Shown here piece after piece: positions 2,220 through 48,979 of a DNA stretch of 64,000 nt. The stretch's first letter is position 1; each line of letters opens with the position of its first letter. The position numbers were made by a program, and so were the translations under genes. The notes beneath the pieces are model-generated. The model searched no databases, was not told the DNA's origin, and saw only the letters and a list, made by a program, of their open reading frames with translations. The stretch covers positions 39,807,993-39,871,992 of the forward strand of contig NC_088644.1 of assembly GCF_964019385.1 (NCBI RefSeq). The letters run 5' to 3'. The stretch comes from Sycon ciliatum. Its lineage: Eukaryota; Porifera; Calcarea; Leucosolenida; Sycettidae.

Positions 2220-4080
2220 GCCTGCGAACTATTCCACTCCAAATGCGCTGAAAATTCCACGATACTGAATGGGGAAAAAGTATCAGTTTTCTTTGGTGCT
2301 TCGGTCGATCACTCTTCACATGTAGCTCACTGTTTCAGTGTTTGAATCTGTTGCAGTGTTGGTGCTTTTCCTTCTCTGAGCCTACTGTCACTGAGTCCTG
2401 TACTAGTATTACACATGTAGTACTGAGGGCGAGGCTCGAGCCACACTCGTCTCCAACTCGACCTACCGCACGCCCTCCTGTCCCATTCTTATCAAGGACT
2501 TAGCTTCGACGTGTTTCGGTGTTCATCATACATATAGTGACGTACTAAGTAATAATAATAATTATTATTATTATTAGTTGTTGGTCACTCAGAATCAGAA
2601 TATTTGAGCGGGTTTCACTGCCCCTGTAGAGTCTCTAAATCGAAGACTTCGCGTACATGTAGCCGAAATAAGAGTAGCAACGGCTCTGTGCTGCCTTGAT
2701 ACATGTAAAACTACAGAATCACCAGTACCGGTAAGTTTGAAAACCGCCCAAAACACCTGTGACACAGCATGAAAATACAAACATCAGTCTAAAACCTGTT
2801 TGATCGGGATCCAAGTAACACTAACAGTGTTCCAACCCTAACTAGTAACCGCCAAGGAGGGCTGGGAAGTCAGCATCAGGACAGTAGGCAAGGTAACGAT
2901 TTCCGTCGCCGTGCCAACTAATTACTTACTTTTCCCTCCACAGCACTTGCACTTGCAGTTGCAGCTGTGTGAGGGCTTGCCTCGACTTGAGTTCGCTTGG
3001 TTGACGCGTCACTTGACTCACAGTGCAACTAGTGTGATACACACGAACGGGGAAAAACAACTCAGGGCGACGAGTCGAGTTACACTACAGAGACCCACCG
3101 TGTGATTTTCAAAGAAAGAGTCCGCCGCCCCAATTCCCTAATCGAAGCTACAGCGTGTAGATCTACATGGTGTATGTTTTGCTAGTTACTGGAGAAGTGA
3201 GCAGATCAGACACTGGTTTGGATGTAATTTGGGCGAGCAGCACGCCTCTACCCGATACGCTCTTGCGCGGACGCTGGTGAAGTCGATTGGTCAGCACGTC
3301 CTTTGACGGTCGGTGGGTGAGTTACACAATATGAATATTCCCCATTCTCCACAACCATGCTATCGTCTACAAATTAAAATGATTTTGTCTAGGTAAAGGC
3401 TACTGGTGCATAATTGGCAACGCGAATGGCTGATGAATAGTCGGCGTGTGATCACTAGTACGGTAGTACCTGAGACTGCGATCATGAGAAGGGACAACCA
3501 GTTAGTAACGTCGACCTCGATGTCTGCATACACGATACAGGGAGTTAGCCCAAGTCACATGCAGTGCTCATGTTATTCCCATGATGTAGTCAGGTACAGT
3601 CAGTGGTTGACTAAGCCTAGGGATATTTTTCTCATACAACTGCTGTAGCGCTGTGCACTCCTGTAGAGCTGTGCACCGTTGTAGAGCGTGCTGGTCAGTG
3701 ATATTTGCTGCCATGACGTGCGATACAAAATCCCTAGCAACACCAACACCGTTCTGTTAAACAGGCCGAACTTACAATTGTAACTGGCCACCGCCTAACA
3801 AGTTACAGCAAGTCGCCTGAGATGCAGAGACAATCATAGATTCCGCTTTGGAAATGTGGCAAGAATAGGCAAAACCGAATGCCAGTCACGAACACGACTT
3901 ACTACAGGCTCGGCTGAACCAGTCCGGTTGTTCAGGTAAACACCAGACCAATGTTTTGGCCACTAACACATGTTTCCTGCTGAGGACGTCATGTGTAGCC
4001 GTGGTTGGCTAAAAAAACCGTGCAATCGCCATGCATGGTGGTCATTGGCTACTCCAGCCATGTATTGTTTGGAATAAAAT
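2220..4080. other. Intergenic; no gene recognised
   Basis: Presumed promoter side of the minus-strand PTB gene. It contains a short (AAT)n/(ATT)n stretch near 2551-2577. No exon, RNA gene or repeat family shared with other parts of the window was found. Confidence 0.35.
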
Positions 4081-4165
4081 AAATATATATCTGGCAAGGT
4101 ACGTTCGGACCTGATTGGAAATTTTTATTTCCATTGCTATCAGGTTCGGCCTCATTTCCTCTGTG

Positions 4166-4209
4166 CTGCGCTGACGAGTCCACAAAGGACGAAACAGTTC
4201 TGTCCGCAG
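4166..4209 (+). ncRNA. Hammerhead ribozyme, type I, copy 1
   Basis: Stem I CTGCG (4166-4170) pairs with CGCAG (4205-4209). The core CTGACGA is at 4171-4177. Stem II GTCC/GGAC closes an ACAAA loop. GAAA lies at 4191-4194, then a very short stem III CAG-TT-CTG. The cleavage triplet is GTC, with cut predicted after 4204. Stem II differs from copies 2 and 3 (GTTC/GAAC) by a compensatory change that keeps pairing, which supports selection on structure. Confidence 0.88.
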
Positions 4210-4353
4210 ATTGAGTATATAATATATATATATATATATGCGTTATGCAGAGCTCACTGACTTGTCAGTTTGAGCACTCTGGCAAGGTACGTTCGGGCCT
4301 GATTGGAAATTTTTATTTCCATTGCTATCAGGTTCGGCCTCATTTCCTCTGTG

Positions 4354-4399
4354 CTGCGCTGATGAGTTCAAAAAGAACGAAACAGCATGCTGTCCGCAG
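4354..4399 (+). ncRNA. Hammerhead ribozyme, type I, copy 2
   Basis: Stem I CTGCG/CGCAG (4354-4358 with 4395-4399), core CTGATGA 4359-4365, stem II GTTC-AAAAA-GAAC, GAAA 4379-4382, stem III within CAGCATGCTG, triplet GTC with cleavage predicted after 4394. All invariant hammerhead positions are present. Confidence 0.9.
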
Positions 4400-4581
4400 A
4401 TTGAGTATTTCGCTCCTGCTCTTGTAGCAGTTGAGCACTCTTGCGTGGGGTAGTGCCTTTGCTGTTTGCGTTATGCAGAGCTCACTGACTTGTCAGTTTG
4501 AGCACTCTGGCAAGGTACGTTCGGGCCTGATTGGAAATTTTTATTTCCATTGCTATCAGGTTCGGCCTCATTTCCTCTGTG

Positions 4582-4627
4582 CTGCGCTGATGAGTTCAAA
4601 AAGAACGAAACAGCATGCTGTCCGCAG
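4582..4627 (+). ncRNA. Hammerhead ribozyme, type I, copy 3
   Basis: Identical in core to copy 2: stem I 4582-4586 with 4623-4627, CTGATGA 4587-4593, stem II GTTC/GAAC, GAAA, and cleavage predicted after 4622. It is followed directly by (TA)n. The distance to the copy 2 cleavage site is 228 nt, the expected size of a released monomer. Confidence 0.9.
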
Positions 4628-4899
4628 ATTGAGTATATATATATATCAAACACAATGAGTGAAAGGCTATGGTATGGCCGGACAAATGGAAACGGCTCAA
4701 TTCGCCGGTCCTGCAAAACATGGTCTTGGCTTTACCATTGAGACAACCGTTCCTGTACGAGCCTTTTCATAGAGTGTTCCTCCCTCCCTTGTTCCATTTC
4801 TGTTGACGTAAATCACAGGTTGTCCGGCGTCCACAGCAGCAATCAGCCCTAACTGATAGAGTGCCATAACTTCAGCTACTGTCACTGCTGCCAAGCATC

Positions 4900-7800
4900 A
4901 TGATTCCACCAGTTACATCACTGGTCAAGTATGACAATCCGAAAATCAAGTCCACACACGACGTAAGAACTGTGAGGATAGCATAGCCAATGGATCCCCG
5001 GGACATGTGAAAAGAGTTATGCATACTGTACTAAGAGGTATTTGATCTTCTGTAGATTGCATCCATTGGCGTGTAAGCGTGGCTGGGTATGCTTTGGGGA
5101 TGGAAGTGCTACTAGCCGGGCCATGCATGAGTCAATGACGCACGTTCATCTCCGGCCAGGTCCACTTTATATGCACATGTAGGTGTATGGCCAAGACCTA
5201 TTTTCTGTCTCTCTGCCAGTCTTCCTGTCTCTGTCTCACCACCTTACTCTCCAAAGGATTATCCTTGTGTATACACATAATTATAGCTTTTACCACAGTC
5301 ATATGGCTTTCGAAATTGCAACTGTTCGTCCTTCTGCTTCTGTAGTGTTCAAGTCAAGGGTATACTTTTCATGTTTTTTATCCAGCCACCAGCCCAACAG
5401 CAGCAGCAAGGGGTCATATCGCCCACAAAGACAAAGGCTTCAGCAACAGAAACTCAGAAGCTGAAGGAAACTGACGAAATCCTTTCCGCCATTCTTCCTC
5501 CAAGGTAAGCAGATAAGAAGTTAGGTCTATGGTACATATTGGTACTGACTTTCCGAACATGAGTTCTGGTCAGAGTGCATGCGTGCTGAAGTGCACGTGT
5601 GGGCAGTCGAGTTCATTGTGCTCTGTAGCGGAAGATCAGATTGATGCTATTCTCCATGTTTGAGCAAATGGGACAAGAGTACAAGAACAACAACAGCACA
5701 GGACTTTGGCCCGAGGGAAAGTCCCTGTATCCGGGGAGCAACAATTCATGTTTTTCTTGCCTAGATCAATTCATGACTACATTGTACAGTGCTGGCAACT
5801 GAAATCCGACCCCCTTGCGGGCGCGGCGCGCCGGCAAGGGTGTCGGATTTCAGTTGCCAGCACTGTACTTGTTGATGCAGTCCATAACCGAACTATAATT
5901 TCAGAGCATATAAAATACTATAATTTTAGTTCAAGCATACAGGTACCTATTGGGGCTTGATAGTGAATGGCGTTAGTGGTACGGTTTGCAATGGTCATTG
6001 ACCTGTGTACAGGGAATGGCAGGAGAGTGGACAGCTGTGGGTCCAGCCAGTCTCCAGCACGCCTGCTACCAGAATGGAAGTGCTGGGATTGAAGGTGAGT
6101 GGACTGTTGTCTGCAGTGCGACACATGCAAAAACTTGGGCCTCGTGCGTATACAATTATTTATAAACATACGTATACTGGTGAACACATGTAGCCACATA
6201 CACGCATACGCACATACACGCATACGCACATACACGCATACGCACATACATTACACTCAATTGTACATATTCACTACCAGATAGTGGTCACATGGGTCTT
6301 TCCGGAGGAGTGGAGAGAGATTCAAAGAAGTCTTGAAGGATGACTCTTGAACTACACTACGAGTGATACCCCCCCCCCACCCCGTCCTTCAGCCCAGACT
6401 CTGCATGGATCTGGAACTGATCCCGTTCAATGGACTCACCAAAACCGCTGACCTGCAGATGTGCCGAGGAGGCTCGGTTCCTCTAGTAACCTTGCTGATA
6501 TAGGTGCGTGGTGAGAAGCACTTTGAACCAAACCAATTTTCGAATCTATTTGACAAATTGACCATATTGGAAATAACGAGATTTCACCATTCGGGCCAAG
6601 GTGGTGAGGCGGTGTTGTCACATCTGGTCCGAAATGCAGGGTGTGTAAAGGGTATTGCGCTGTCTAAATGCAGGGTGACACAAAATGTGATGTATTGTGT
6701 TGATTAGATCCATACCTGGTCTTCTACTGCAAGCGGAGTATATTAACACTAGTCTTCCCATCACTGATGTGTTTTTGTACCTATAGGAGTTACTAGACAC
6801 GAGGATTCAGCAGCGACAGGCCAGGGAGACTGGCATATGCCCCGTGCGACGCGAGCTCTATAGCCAATGTTTTGGTACGTTGTGTGCAAGTGCGCTCACC
6901 CTTTTTCTATTATAGGATGGCACAATTGAAGATAAGTGTCAATAGGTCGGTTATTCTGACCTGGCATACTGTTTGAAAACGACTGTCCAGAAGGGATTCT
7001 CCCTTGAGGTATTGATAGCAGTTTTTCAGGCGGTTGTAATTCTATCATATTTCAAAGTAAAACCTATGTGTTGCTGTGATTTTGCTGGATTTGTGACTCT
7101 GGGACAGCATGGTAGTCGAGAGAAACAGTGCTATAATGCTTTGTTGTGTATGTTCCGAACAATTCCTCTCAGTTAACTATCACATAGGAGAAGGTGTGAA
7201 TGTGTAAATCGTCCCCGTCAGGGTTTCTTGCCACCTGCTCTGCCATGTACTGTAAAACATGTAATTTTAGGTGTGCATTAAAATTTCGGAGCCAGGGACC
7301 TGCCAGGTTTCAGGTGGAATGTAGAATTAGATGACCAGCGTTCCCTTCGCATACAAGTGCATGCTCTAGTGCAGTATGTGTGGTATTCAGCGAGGAGGGC
7401 TTGCAGATGCTAAATAATGACCACAATAGCAGCATGGGATGTTTGTGATGTGATGACGGCTGTGTCCTTCTAGACGAGATTATCCGCCAAGTCACCATTG
7501 AATGTTCTGAGCGTGGACTTCTTTTGCTTCGGTAAGGCTGATTTGTACAGATTTTCAATTCATAATCCGTACGTGTAAATGTGCCGGTGTGCCACTCGCT
7601 GAAATGAACCCTAACCTTCATACTGCACACACTGCATGGCAGAACATCAGTGTCCAGATACCAATTGAGTGTACCTTAGATTATCGCCAGCATGCATAGT
7701 GTGGAGTTATATTGCATGTACAATGCAGCAGCATGCCGGCCATCGTTTTCTGCTGTGTAGTATGTTGACTCGAGAGCTGTAATAATACGACTCCCTGATG

Positions 7801-8990: not shown

Positions 8991-10304
8991 GCATACACAC
9001 ACACACACACACACACATGCACACACTAGATTGGTTCTATTCCAAACCGTGCATTCTTTTCAAGTTGAAACCACATACTTCGTGGATAGACTACTATTTC
9101 TCTTGAATTACAATTTCTACAATTTCTGGTGCTTTGCTTTAGATTGTCGAACTCGAGGAAGAAGTCAAGCAACAGGAGAAAATGGTAGCAGATTGGAAGA
9201 ACAAGTACGAGGCGCTGGAGAAGCGTGAGGCAGAAAGAAGAGTTGCTGACCAGACCAAGCATCAGGAGGAGATGCAGTTTGCTAAAAGAACCAACCAGCA
9301 ACTCAAGGTAAGAAATTATTGGACAAAAGGACCTACTCAATCTTCGGACAGAACTGTTTCGTCCTTTGGGACTCATCAGCACATCACAGAGAAAATGAGG
9401 CCAAACCTGATAGCAATGAAAAATAAATTTTCCAAAGCCAGATTTAAACCAGGCCCAAACGTACCTTGCCAGAGTGCTCAAACTGGCAAGTCAATGAGCT
9501 CTGCGTAACGCAAACAGCAAAGGCACTACTCCACGCGAGAGTGCTCAACTGATACAAGAGCAGGAGCGAAATGCTCGCGGACAAGGACTTACAAATAAAT
9601 CAACTGCAATACTAGAAAATCCAATAGATCCTAGTAAAACCCTGGAAAATATCTTTCCACCACAGCCAGTGATTGACGACGAAGCAGTATATATTATGCA
9701 GTCTTGGTTTGCTGGAATTAGAGCCTGCCAAACTCTACTGCCCAGTGTCGTGGCAGTGCCTTTTTATGCCGGTTACAGTAAAACCTGTTACTAATGACCA
9801 CCCCTTGGGGCTAGAGAAAGCGGTCTTTAGTGGCAGGTGGTCCTTAGCTAGAGGTTTGCACTGCACAACCATCGGAATGTGAGACCGTCCGTGCCTGGCG
9901 AAGTGGTCTGTAGTACCAGGCTGGCCACTAGTCACGGTGGTCTGTAGTACCAGGCTGGCCACTAGTCTGTAGTACCAGGCTGGTCACTAGTCTGTAGTAC
10001 CAGGCTGGTCACTAGTCTGTAGTACCAGGCTGGCCACTAGTCACCATGATCTCTAGTTACAGGTTTTACTGTATATGTCAAACCCCATACTTGGGGCCTC
10101 AGTTTTCCAGTTCAGGGGAAACCCCGGTTGTAAGTCGACTTCCTGTCGTTTCGTCCAGTTCTTAGGTCATAATATGTCGACCTATAACCGGTACGATACT
10201 TATGGTAACTTTAGCAATGGATGCCATCGAGTGAGTGTATATTGTGTCATTGTTGTATGCTGCAGACCCAGCTAGAGGGAATCATTGCACCGAACAAGAA
10301 ATAA
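4900..10304 (+). CDS. DNALI1: Axonemal dynein light intermediate chain p28
   Basis: Nine exons: 4900-4962, 5386-5504, 6013-6094, 6787-6874, 7474-7531, 7956-8012, 8810-8873, 9143-9307 and 10266-10304. All junctions are GT/AG with matching phases. The coding length is 735 nt, giving 244 aa, close to the family's usual size. The start [12 protein letters not shown] matches the conserved N-terminus. Further family landmarks are [56 protein letters not shown] and the coiled coil ending [20 protein letters not shown]. The protein binds single-headed inner-arm dyneins in motile cilia and flagella, so the organism has motile cilia. Introns hold a fold-back MITE (intron 2), (CA)n starting just after the donor (intron 7), and an inverted retrozyme monomer plus a MITE (intron 8). 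Confidence 0.95.
5787..5865. mobile_element. Fold-back MITE, Tc1/mariner-like (copy 1)
   Basis: A 79-bp element flanked by TA on both sides. Its ends are inverted: CAGTGCTGGCAACTGAAATC against GATTTCAGTTGCCAGCACTG. The GC-rich centre differs from the other two copies (18819-18955 and 55631-55730). It lies in DNALI1 intron 2. TA target duplications and CAGT termini suggest mobilisation by a Tc1/mariner-type transposase, which is inference. Confidence 0.8.
6190..6250 (+). repeat. (CATACG)n-type simple repeat
   Basis: Short repeat of CATACACGCATACGCA units in DNALI1 intron 3. Confidence 0.8.
8887..9026 (+). repeat. (CA)n microsatellite
   Basis: Interrupted (CA)n with GCAC variants, starting about 14 nt after the 5' splice site of DNALI1 exon 7. 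Open frames across it are artefacts of the repeat. Confidence 0.95.
9331..9577 (-). mobile_element. Retrozyme-like monomer, inverted copy in DNALI1 intron 8
   Basis: Read on the minus strand, this is about one full monomer of the 4.1-4.6 kb array. It starts at the segment that follows the ribozyme (ATTTCGCTCCTGCTCTTG), runs through GGCAAGGTACG and ends with a hammerhead (9342-9384) and GATTGAGTA. It is therefore bounded near ribozyme cleavage sites, as expected if an RNA monomer was reverse transcribed. In this copy CTGATGA, stem II GTCC/GGAC, GAAA and GTC are intact, but stem I has two mismatches (ATGTG against CGAAG), so cleavage may be weak. Confidence 0.8.
9776..10071. mobile_element. MITE with CAGTAAAACCTGTAAC ends (copy 1)
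   Basis: TA-flanked element in DNALI1 intron 8. Its ends are CAGTAAAACCTGTTACTAA and, inverted, AGTTACAGGTTTTACTG. Relatives lie at 16425-16621 and 33377-33552. This copy is longer because a 25-29 bp piece (CTGTAGTACCAGGCTGG.CACTAGT) is tandemly repeated about five times at 9908-10042. Confidence 0.75.
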
Positions 10305-41049: not shown

Positions 41050-44193
<3,144 letters not shown>

Positions 44194-44687
44194 GCCAGTT
44201 TGCAAACTTTGAAAGTGATCATGCCGTCAGCCCGCGGTCCAGAAGTCACCTGGGCACCTCATGGAGATTGCTTGTATGGTGTATGCTCCAATACGATTGT
44301 CTTGCTTATAAAGTACCCATACATGTATATACTCCATACATGGCGTGAGATGCAAGTCCAGCGTCAGAGATGGCTCTCAGGACAAGTACAAAAATAATAA
44401 TAGCTAAGTTTTGCAACAGACATGTGCTGGTTTCCTGTCATTGCTGTTTTGGCATATGAATACATGTTTTGCACAGTGAGCCTCCGTTCTGCATGCATTC
44501 TGCAAAGAGTGCGTTTGCACTCCAACATTATATGCATTCTCTGTTCCCTGGCTGCCCAATTTGGGATGTTTGTTAAGGAAACCCAGCCTAGATCTGATCT
44601 TGGTGGCTGGCTTCCGTGCACCAGTATTTTTTGGTAATGCTACTGAAACATCACCATCATGTACATGTAGGTCTGTATGTACTCAAT

Positions 44688-44732
44688 CTGCGGGCAGAAC
44701 TGTTTCGTCCTTTGTGGTCTCGTCAGCGGAGC
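44688..44732 (-). ncRNA. Hammerhead ribozyme relic, inverted
   Basis: Minus strand: CTCCG-CTGACGA, stem II GACC/GGAC, GAAA, stem III CAG-TT-CTG, then CC and CGCAG. It belongs to the 4.1 kb family (GATTGAGTAC follows). The cleavage triplet is GCC instead of GTC, and stems I and II each carry a mismatch, so it is probably inactive. Only about 90 bp of the monomer remain. Confidence 0.75.
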
Positions 44733-47057
44733 ACAGAGAAAATTTATGTACATGCATGTATTTTTAGACAGTTATCCTACTTGGAAGTAATTCGCAAGTA
44801 CACATGGCCTACAAGCCTGATTGGTAGAAAGTCCTAGTAGAAAGACGCTTCTTTCTGAAGCATCCTTACAGAATATTATTATTATTAATCTGCAGCTGCA
44901 CAGACCCCACTTTCAGTATCACATCATGGTTATACAGAGCACTCTATTCTATTTCATTTCAGCATTTTATAATGCACACATCCTGCCACTTTCTGTTGAG
45001 AGTGACTTCATCATATGCATTGCTCGCACTGTCTCAGTTTGCTGGCCCACTGTCTTTACAATCATTAATTTTTGTTTCTCCTTTTTTTCAGCCTGTTCTG
45101 GTATGGATGTTTTGCACACGAATTCTCATAATTATCTGCTTGCACCAATATCGCCGCAAAGCAACCCATTTTTTTTGTACCAAGTCCACTATGCTGCCGA
45201 ATAAACGCGGAGAGTCCACTGATGAAAAGTGCTGTGCAGTACAGTGTACGCACGCACCAGAACAAACCTCTTGCAATCAGGAACTAGTAGTAGCTGATAT
45301 TTTACTACTCCCTGATTACAATGGATGCCAAGAGTAAAATAAGCTCACTTGTGTGTACTGAGAAGTAAGGACTGATATCATCTGAAGGTGCATGCTGCAG
45401 ACAAGGTTGGTGACATCATCCGAAAGGGTAGGGACATTAATAATCACACGGGAAACCTTTTCTGCTACTTTGATGGAATCTGTGCGTTTTTGATTTTAGC
45501 CATTTTCAGGTCTAATAATAGTGCATGGCAGGAGAGTCCTAGGCTTTGGCTTGTTAGTGACGGATTAGCCCAAGGGCTAACATGAATGGCGTTAACAAGC
45601 CAGTTGCCTGACCTGCCCTAGACTGACCATTTTAGAAAGAGGTTATTATTCGCTTTGCGTAGACTGGAAAGTCCCTTGAATCATGTCCTACTTTGATAGC
45701 ATGCTCAGTATTCAAATGTTCTGAAGTTGATAGGGACCATTTCACTGATTGCCAGTAGATGATAGTTTAATTATTAACTGTTTTATAAGCGGTGAAAGCT
45801 TTGTACCTAGTGGCTGTGTCAAAGTGCAATTGGATGGGTACCACCTCAATGATTGCTAATAGATGAAAGTTAATTAACTGCTTTGCAAGCGGTGAAACCT
45901 TTGTACCTAGTGGCTGTGTGAAAGTGCAATTGCATAGGTAGCATAGCACAGCAGTGGTTAATATGTCTTGACAATGTGGTCTAACTACAATTCGAATCAG
46001 CAAAGTAACACACCACCCAATGCAAAGCTTCCCCTTCTGTATTTACCTTTGATAGTTCTGACCTTACCAAGTTGGGTGGCGTGTTCCTTTGCTTCTTCGA
46101 AGTGTAGTTAGACCACAGGACTCGTCATCGTCCTGTAACAGCCGACATTCTCTGTTGCTGTAGGACTTAGCTTGTGCACAATTTCGTTGTGCTCACCCTA
46201 CCATCATTGGTCTTACCTTAATTTAACCTCAAACATTCCAAGTACTGAGTTGGAAAGATGTTGGTTTGCGCACTGAAGATGCGTTACAGATATACGGTAC
46301 ATGTACTTCTTGAAGTAGGTACCAGGTCGTTGCATGTCTCATTAGTCTGCCAGTTTTGTGCCCTGTTATCGCACTTTCTGACTGCTTATTGTCTTACTCT
46401 AGTGTCAGTGTTGGACAGTGACTCTAGCTAGCTCGTATTCGTGTGTCTTTCAATGTAATCTGTCAGATTATTTTCCTTTTTCAGGCAGTTCACTTCCCGG
46501 GCAGAAACTGGCCGTGGTTGGTCCCCTACGGAGGGGAAAGACCCTAATGCCATCTTGGAATCTAACACTTGAACATATGCCAAGCCCATACAAACATATC
46601 CCCTCAACCACACACACGCACATGTATATAAACAGACGAAGATACACGCATGCTTGCAGGCAACGACGCACGCACGCCCGCTCACGTACAATAATATTAT
46701 GGTTTAATAGGTCCTGTGTTGGGTTAACATGGTGCTGTACTGCGCACACGCTTCTTATTTTATGTATGTCCTACCCAGCCTAGCCGTCTTCATACTCCCA
46801 GTCCCCTTTCCTCGTGTTCCCCATGATACAGTACTGGGTCATCTACATGATTGTACATGACCCGTGTAGTTCACAATGATCTCAGGACCTCAGGTCGGCC
46901 GAAAGCATGCACTTGTCACACCACTCTTTTAGGTGTTCCTCTGACCACTGAGAATTGGAGCCATTGGGCACTTCCAGGCCGGAGAAAAGAGAAAAAAAGA
47001 CGCAGGCACTTACGTAAAAAAGGAAAAAACGGATGCAGGTACACGTACTACATGTTA

Positions 47058-48934: not shown

Positions 48935-48979
48935 CCTTCTCTGACGAGCCTTTTCGTAGGCGAAACAGCTGTCAGAAGG
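48935..48979 (+). ncRNA. Hammerhead ribozyme, type I, second family
   Basis: Stem I CCTTCT (48935-48940) pairs perfectly with AGAAGG (48974-48979). Core CTGACGA 48941-48947. Stem II GCCT-TTTCGT-AGGC. GAAA 48962-48965. Minimal stem III inside CAGCTG. Cleavage triplet GTC, cut predicted after 48973. Flanks are unrelated to the 4.1 kb family, so this is an independent element. It starts 351 bp downstream of the CAP stop codon on the same strand, so it could also act in that gene's 3' UTR. Confidence 0.85.

Follow-up and report, generated by a model that had tools for sequence, protein, structure and literature searches.

Insertion anatomy and Penelope-like neighbours of a probable hammerhead retrozyme family in the sponge Sycon ciliatum

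Metazoan non-LTR retrozymes are described in the available part of PMC7229834 as non-coding tandem repeats of 150–450 bp with a type I hammerhead ribozyme and a GC content below 50%, flanked by target duplications of more than 4 bp and residing in genomes that also contain Penelope-like elements (PLEs). The same part reports this plan from cnidarians, molluscs, amphibians and other phyla and names PLEs as a strong candidate for the mobilising enzyme; the mode of insertion and the borrowed enzyme were left open in the accessible sections of two papers from 2020 (PMC7229834, PMC7761336). For the Anolis PLE Poseidon, reverse transcription was found to start internally, downstream of the hammerhead cut, in AT-rich DNA and at two adjacent sites, and PLEs were reported to have two 3′ ends and an optional "tail" of 30–40 bp (PMC11167929). 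Plant LTR retrozymes are also non-coding hammerhead retroelements thought to move via circular RNA, but they carry their hammerheads in LTRs and have 4-bp duplications, a primer binding site and a polypurine tract (PMC4918200, accessible text), which is not the plan found here; their hammerheads are of type III (PMC7229834, available part).

The family described here was identified in a window of 64,000 nucleotides of Sycon ciliatum DNA, by which we mean the whole stretch analysed. It resembles the metazoan non-LTR retrozymes of PMC7229834, as far as the available part describes them, in its type I hammerhead, tandem organization, lack of protein, GC content (48% in the unit), target duplications and PLEs in the same genome, with units of 224–230 bp compared to 220–240 bp in corals. 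With the newt and axolotl repeats of the same source part it shares the type I hammerhead, a weak stem III with a palindromic loop (ACAGCATGCTGT in Sycon) and tandem copies, while the amphibian units are longer (330–350 bp). In comparison with Poseidon (PMC11167929), the internal start downstream of the cut, the AT-rich target and the tandem copies appear alike, whereas the Sycon unit lacks an ORF for reverse transcriptase and GIY-YIG endonuclease (RT-GIY-YIG) and has a full-length hammerhead. The putative start lies 11–13 nt past the cut in Sycon, compared to 111–118 bp in Anolis, where the cut is located 26 bp into the ORF; furthermore, the Anolis start is not homologous to the cut DNA (PMC11167929), while Sycon shares 1–2 nt (TA) with it. 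The retrozyme plan as such is already known; what is new in the Sycon family is its insertion anatomy, and its PLE neighbours are informative as well. Compared to what the available part of PMC7229834 offers, the junctions could be resolved: the 3′ end is fixed 11–13 nt beyond the cut, and the 5′ end varies. They can be read directly in a chromosome-scale sponge assembly that holds thousands of copies, many of them identical. The family also places retrozymes in a sponge, a host group for which the text of PMC7229834 contains neither "sponge" nor "porifer". Within the limited literature collection searched, no paper pairing a hammerhead ribozyme with Porifera was found, and none on topic that joined retrozymes with target-primed reverse transcription. 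Overall, we consider it quite probable that the family is a metazoan non-LTR retrozyme, i.e., a non-autonomous, protein-free retroelement of about 224–230 nt with a type I hammerhead and a proposed cycle through RNA circles.

The features of the family identified in the window, including two older copies detected by blastn of the array on the window, are as follows.

4090..4217, + strand: insertion 1, a 5′-truncated retrozyme (unit positions 99–228) of the 226-bp subfamily
4171..4204, + strand: predicted type I hammerhead 1, spanning the core up to the residue (4204) behind which the cut is expected
4218..4238, + strand: (TA)n tract of 21 bp between both insertions
4239..4635, + strand: insertion 2, an array of 1.7 units (unit positions 60–228, then 1–228) of the 228-bp subfamily
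4359..4394, + strand: predicted type I hammerhead 2 (RF02275, 28.8 bits); cleavage expected after 4394
4587..4622, + strand: predicted type I hammerhead 3 (RF02275, 31.2 bits); cleavage expected after 4622
4623..4635, + strand: tail of 13 nt beyond the cut with GATTGAGTA at its end, the typical family 3′ terminus
4636..4647, + strand: (TA)n TC, 3′ flank
9334..9571, − strand: older, nearly full copy, 85% identical
44680..44743, − strand: older 5′-truncated copy (unit positions 163–228), 83% identical

The first-pass annotation had described three units in a row at 4085..4646 as one array. The element is indeed present there, but it ends at 4635, the remainder up to 4646 being (TA)n, and the three units belong to two insertions of two subfamilies with (TA)n between them. 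Insertion 1 revealed 94% identity to the 228-bp unit and a TT loop in stem III, while in insertion 2 the second unit served as the reference and the first was 100% identical to it; the spacings between the cleavage sites are accordingly unequal (190 and 228). Insertions 1 and 2 are separate events that hit one (TA)n tract or its edge. Paired with the 3′ flank, the (TA)n TC around 4083–4091 is a possible target duplication of the window array, though of low complexity. As judged by eye, stem I is broken in the copy at 9334–9571, which has similar GTCCTTGTCC and GTCCTTTTGTCC near its two ends, and the ribozyme position U16.1 is mutated in the copy at 44680–44743.

A pairing-aware scan, which required the conserved core, a UH cleavage site and paired stems I, II and III, detected four hammerhead motifs in the window, three borne by the retrozyme and one unrelated, and none in 60 random 64-kb sequences generated with a first-order Markov model. 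The three retrozyme motifs, all on the + strand with cleavage residues 4204, 4394 and 4622, each possess CTGANGA, GAAA, the cleavage triplet GTC, a stem I of 5 bp and a stem II of 4 bp, in agreement with the invariant core, GTC and complete stem I that had been noticed at first inspection; stem III has 4–6 pairs when counted through the loop. Based on core, cleavage triplet and three helices, open at stem I, they are predicted hammerheads of the type I class. A covariance search, as proposed in the first-pass annotation, gave E values of about 1e-5 and yielded no match at gathering score in the whole 64-kb window: against a gathering score of 52, Hammerhead_HH9 (RF02275) gave 31.2 bits for hammerhead 3 and 28.8 bits for hammerhead 2, and against one of 34, Hammerhead_1 (RF00163) gave 30.1 bits for hammerhead 1 (E values of 9e-6, 5.6e-5 and 2.6e-5, respectively, with 801 bp searched). 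Outside the window, four places, of whatever family, exceeded 34 bits among 74 candidates scored out of 76236.

The compensatory change in stem II that had been pointed out between copies is real: one compensated pair is U-A in 12 and C-G in 11 of 23 distinct units. Since this change separates the two subfamilies, it is largely one event. Among the 23 units, 97.0% of 368 pair cells hold, compared to 26–49% when the partners are slid, while two of five covariation measures (both-side changes and further pair types) revealed no excess over shuffles. As the 23 units are close relatives, the covariation evidence is weak, and the invariant core and the triplet weigh more.

Downstream of the array, the ATG of a DNALI1-like protein is located at 4900, leaving 264 bp between the element end at 4635 and the ATG, near to the distance of about 250 bp given before. 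The name DNALI1 is a putative one for the N-terminus; for the exon at about 9146–9310, an axonemal dynein light chain domain (Pfam PF10211) supports it. A function of the array within DNALI1, as its 5′ UTR or promoter, would be in keeping with its position on the same strand 264 bp before the ATG. It is, however, one of thousands of dispersed copies, and the copy at 9334–9571, in an apparent intron after the apparent 5′ splice site of the 9146–9310 exon, is antisense and decayed; we regard such a role as the least probable of all readings, and the effect on DNALI1 proposed earlier is unsupported beyond proximity. Downstream of the C-terminal-type exon 9146–9310, an ORF at 9498–9794 (+) resembles by eye an earlier part of a DNALI1-type protein, without a Pfam match, which suggests a rearranged or duplicated DNALI1-type gene.

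Genome-wide counts were obtained from the 538-Mb S. ciliatum assembly, in which the window is part of contig C2, using exact patterns with reversed-pattern controls. For the ribozyme 3′ half followed by the 13-nt tail, 3225 matches were counted (1684 in forward and 1541 in reverse orientation; control 0), and this copy count, which had been proposed earlier, excludes that no other full copies exist. The 3′ half alone was found 4685 times (control 13), so that 1460 of these lack the exact tail, the seamless unit-unit junction 1757 times (control 0), and the tail running on into TATAT 408 times (control 0). The family is dispersed over at least 10 contigs and falls into two subfamilies, the 228-bp type with ACAGCATGCTGT (GCATGC type) in stem III and the 226-bp type with the TT loop. 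Tandem units measure 224–230 bp; 51 arrays contain two or more full units, and arrays reach 10 or more near-identical units. No coding capacity was detected, the longest stop-free run in a trimer of the unit being 75 codons, and no LTR-like plan was seen in the mapped loci. Together with the target duplications in 23 of 46 arrays, these features bear out the retrozyme reading of the first-pass annotation. Since 250 units, picked by regular expression from the mapped loci and the window, hold only 23 distinct ribozyme sequences, the commonest found 98 times, the family appears to have been active recently. In 146 pairs taken from the first four full units in 51 arrays, units of one array differed by a mean of 0.82 edits, compared to 4.22 edits between the first units of separate arrays (1275 pairs). 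The exact-pattern scan of viral contigs gave no matches. A scan of prokaryote genomes yielded two matching loci (L001 and L002, contigs of an uncultured Flammeovirgaceae bacterium MAG), which were rejected as members based on flanks that are unlike by eye; they show a hammerhead-like motif downstream of a short ORF (by eye).

Insertion anatomy was analysed in two samples. The query-picked sample consisted of 37 loci chosen by similarity to the window array and the window itself, together 80 arrays; the C1 sample comprised the motif-plus-tail matches on contig C1 up to 16.04 Mb without C1:583 kb, i.e., 40 loci with 46 arrays. Since the latter was chosen with a pattern containing the tail, to which single-unit copies ending elsewhere are invisible, only multi-unit arrays and copies found by blastn are a fair test of the 3′ end there. 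In the C1 sample, 44 of 46 arrays and 18 of 20 multi-unit arrays end at unit position 225–228; one exception looks split by a later insertion (L075), the other ends at position 23 (L077). The same 3′ end was found for 78 of 80 query-picked arrays and 52 of the 53 multi-unit ones, both exceptions being cut by the locus edge, and both decayed copies in the window, detected by blastn and independent of the pattern, end at 228. The 5′ ends, in comparison, are spread over the unit (positions 15–193 in the 20 multi-unit arrays of the C1 sample), and many copies are single and 5′-truncated, 26 of the 46 C1-sample arrays consisting of one piece. In the (TA)n-rich query-picked sample, certain 5′ breakpoints recur (position 65 in 10 arrays, 88 in four), perhaps through microhomology with (TA)n. 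As blastn hides short stretches of a preceding unit at array starts, the arrays recorded as starting at 1–3 (20 query-picked, four in C1) were reread: 19 truly start at 216–228 or 1, and five at 2–3. Array L030 begins at position 216, directly behind the cut, as expected of a run-off product.

Exact target duplications of at least 8 bp (8–19 bp) flank 23 of the 46 C1-sample arrays, the other 23 having none of 8 bp, while 200 shuffles of the 3′ flanks among arrays gave a mean of 1.44 and a maximum of five. After removal of seven simple repeats and with L057 and L058 taken as one duplicated locus, 15 distinct sites with 8–16 bp remained, eight of which flank multi-unit arrays of two to six pieces. 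In eight of the 15, the duplication begins at the terminal TA of the unit or one base ahead of it, and the boundary was therefore placed at GATTGAG with the TA shared; the unit end lies 11–13 nt past the cleavage site. The impression gained from the query-picked loci that all insertions lie in (TA)n had to be abandoned, as only five of 46 C1-sample arrays have a (TA)n 3′ flank, and the genome-wide 3225 matches of motif plus tail versus 408 of the tail into TATAT, patterns that differ, also contradict it. Nine pairs of arrays lie tail-to-tail across short (TA)n (L011, L012, L019, L023, L025, L029, L031, L035, L062), and two further pairs across a tetranucleotide repeat (L089, L091), as if each insertion offered a landing site for the next. 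Four pairs are fused head-to-head, three of them with only (TA)n or ATAT in between.

Arrays of 10 or more near-identical units would also be expected of a hammerhead-containing satellite DNA that spreads through unequal crossing-over alone, with no retrotransposition involved, and some growth after insertion is possible. Against this speak the multi-unit arrays between target duplications at eight distinct sites, the single 3′ phase in 18 of 20 multi-unit arrays, and the many single 5′-truncated copies dispersed over at least 10 contigs, so that we disfavour this explanation as very improbable.

Overall, the junctions fit a target-primed reverse transcription that begins at a single internal position of an RNA which is either circular or uncut. 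In the proposed cycle, an array would be transcribed and the transcript cut into monomers by its hammerheads, and, by analogy with work on other animals, a host ligase would close the monomers into circles. A borrowed reverse transcriptase, primed by the nicked target, often at TA, would begin copying at a single internal RNA site, GAGUA, 11–13 nt downstream of the cleavage site, would run once or several times round the circle and would stop at variable places; the junctions suggest that the cDNA would then be sealed with a target duplication of about 8–16 bp. Cleavage, circularisation and the circular template are predicted steps. A run-off copy of a cut monomer would not extend 13 nt beyond the site at which that monomer was cleaved; the template must hence be either uncut or a closed circle. 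The array lengths, the one 3′ phase, the spread 5′ ends and the near-identical units fit several laps round a circle, though a linear uncut multimer could have been the template instead. The GAGUA start site is a prediction that can be tested with purified protein.

With respect to the enzyme, we identified two PLE families that coexist with the retrozyme in the genome, the second beside the arrays. The first (L096, L097) encodes an 807-aa ORF in L096 with a GIY-YIG domain (24.5 bits, cut-off 22.6), and the sequence that it shares with the retrozyme unit is at most 12 nt. The L096 ORF is flanked by inverted 367-bp repeats (L096:1–362 and 2824–3190) carrying a possible minimal hammerhead, CTGATGA...GAAAC, without an Rfam match at E ≤ 1. 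The second family was recognized by a reverse transcriptase ORF at L046:2266–3501 (−), with tblastn E values down to 3.6e-20 for a Sycon PLE and 1.2e-17 for P0037, a protein with RVT_1 and GIY-YIG above cut-off. Its own RVT_1 match (24.8 bits) lies below the cut-off of 29.6, and its GIY-YIG motif was seen by eye. Five PLE proteins matched nine of 77 mapped loci by tblastn (best E 3.6e-20), and blastn with the L046 piece revealed 52 pieces of at least 60 bp in 20 of the 77 loci (L020, L024, L026, L030, L033, L042, L046 and 13 others), namely in 19 of 37 query-picked loci versus one of 40 C1 loci. These pieces are mostly 95–100% alike, and the family is therefore young. In 41 of 52 cases the 3′ end falls on one of two sites: 18 pieces stop at the shorter, and 23 reach or pass the longer, where the blastn query itself stops. 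The longer form has an extra stretch of about 35 nt (by eye), and both mostly run into (TA)n. These two 3′ ends match the PLE pattern reported in PMC11167929. Genome-wide, the exact 3′-end word gave 719 matches against none for the control. What had been taken for a palindromic (TA)n "host repeat" turned out to be 3′ ends of this family, and the empty-site pattern for it, present at a single place, proves nothing. A GIY-YIG match on C291 was likewise discarded as a PLE, being by eye a bacterial UvrC-like ORF; the contig (L098, 17.5 kb) is probably a symbiont or contaminant.

Pieces of the second PLE family and retrozyme arrays form 25 neighbour pairs spaced by at most 40 bp, 12 tail-to-tail, 10 on the same strand and three head-to-head. 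The latter three were considered as chimaeras of a single event, but (TA)n lies at the centre of each, and two insertions fit equally well. In 19 pairs, PLE pieces are fused head-to-head and their 3′ ends point away from each other, such as extension of both strands at a break might produce. Among the listed matches on C1:0–40 Mb, five of 10 PLE clusters have a retrozyme within 5 kb, where about 0.2 would be expected at random with about 95 listed retrozyme loci in this stretch, though a shared liking for (TA)n could equally explain such neighbours.

Neighbours this close would also occur if the retrozyme units were the terminal repeats (pLTRs) of a Penelope-like element, and PLEs of other animals carry hammerheads (PMC7761336, accessible sections). 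This reading is contradicted by the 1757 exact seamless unit-unit joins, by the PLE pieces having their own 3′ ends (41 of 52 at two sites) and every relative orientation to the arrays, by the (TA)n separating both at the junctions read, and by 57 of 77 loci without a PLE piece; an RT-GIY-YIG ORF placed between units as one element was not found. We consider it even less credible than a satellite origin.

The second PLE family is, judged by its position in the same (TA)n tracts, the best candidate for the enzyme source. The same retrozyme might instead be mobilised by a LINE with an APE-type endonuclease, and several points agree with this: the window contains LINE-like reverse transcriptases, one with an endonuclease domain, while the five PLE proteins found no match in it by tblastn, and most C1-sample sites are not (TA)n. 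Target duplications of 8–16 bp are also usual for LINEs. For Nematostella, duplications of 15 bp were compared to LINEs (PMC4918200, accessible text). On the other hand, the retrozyme 3′ ends lack an A-rich tail, they are internal to the RNA with a TA common to the target, as in the PLE model (PMC11167929), and a PLE family with two 3′ sites lies in the same tracts. Because this young family adjoins arrays in the same (TA)n tracts, we rate the Penelope reading higher and the LINE explanation lower, the latter being unlikely but still the main rival. With evenly balanced confidence, we propose that a Penelope-like enzyme copies an RNA circle made by the ribozyme in a rolling-circle, target-primed manner, starting at the 11–13-nt site with the TA shared. 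Under this proposal, each insertion would copy between a fraction of a lap and ten or more laps, and, if it is true, the enzyme class behind animal retrozymes would be named.

The predicted fold of the 228-nt circle has a minimum free energy of −73.6 kcal/mol with 68% of the bases paired (z = −2.29 versus 200 shuffles, the lowest of which reached −75.3). In this fold, stem II forms all four of its pairs, while stem I forms none of five and stem III none of four, the bases past the cut pairing with UCUGUG instead; forcing the hammerhead gives −68.5 kcal/mol, at a cost of 5.1 kcal/mol. Most metazoan circles are predicted to allow the hammerhead, according to the available part of PMC7229834, whereas the lowest-energy Sycon circle is predicted not to. 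As stems I and III are absent from it, the circle may be held uncut, or the fold model may be wrong.

Two further repeats were observed in the window. At 43192–43519, a 21-bp tandem repeat is present in 15.6 copies that are 99% alike. The unrelated type I hammerhead motif lies at 48935–48979 (+) (RF00163, 29.8 bits, E 6.5e-6 in 151 bp), the pairing-aware scan having placed it at 48941–48973, and belongs to a dispersed repeat for which the genome gave at least 42 matches. Five pairs of them are in inverted (−,+) order, a few hundred bp apart, and among the copies the core is constant and the stems are variable, as judged by eye.
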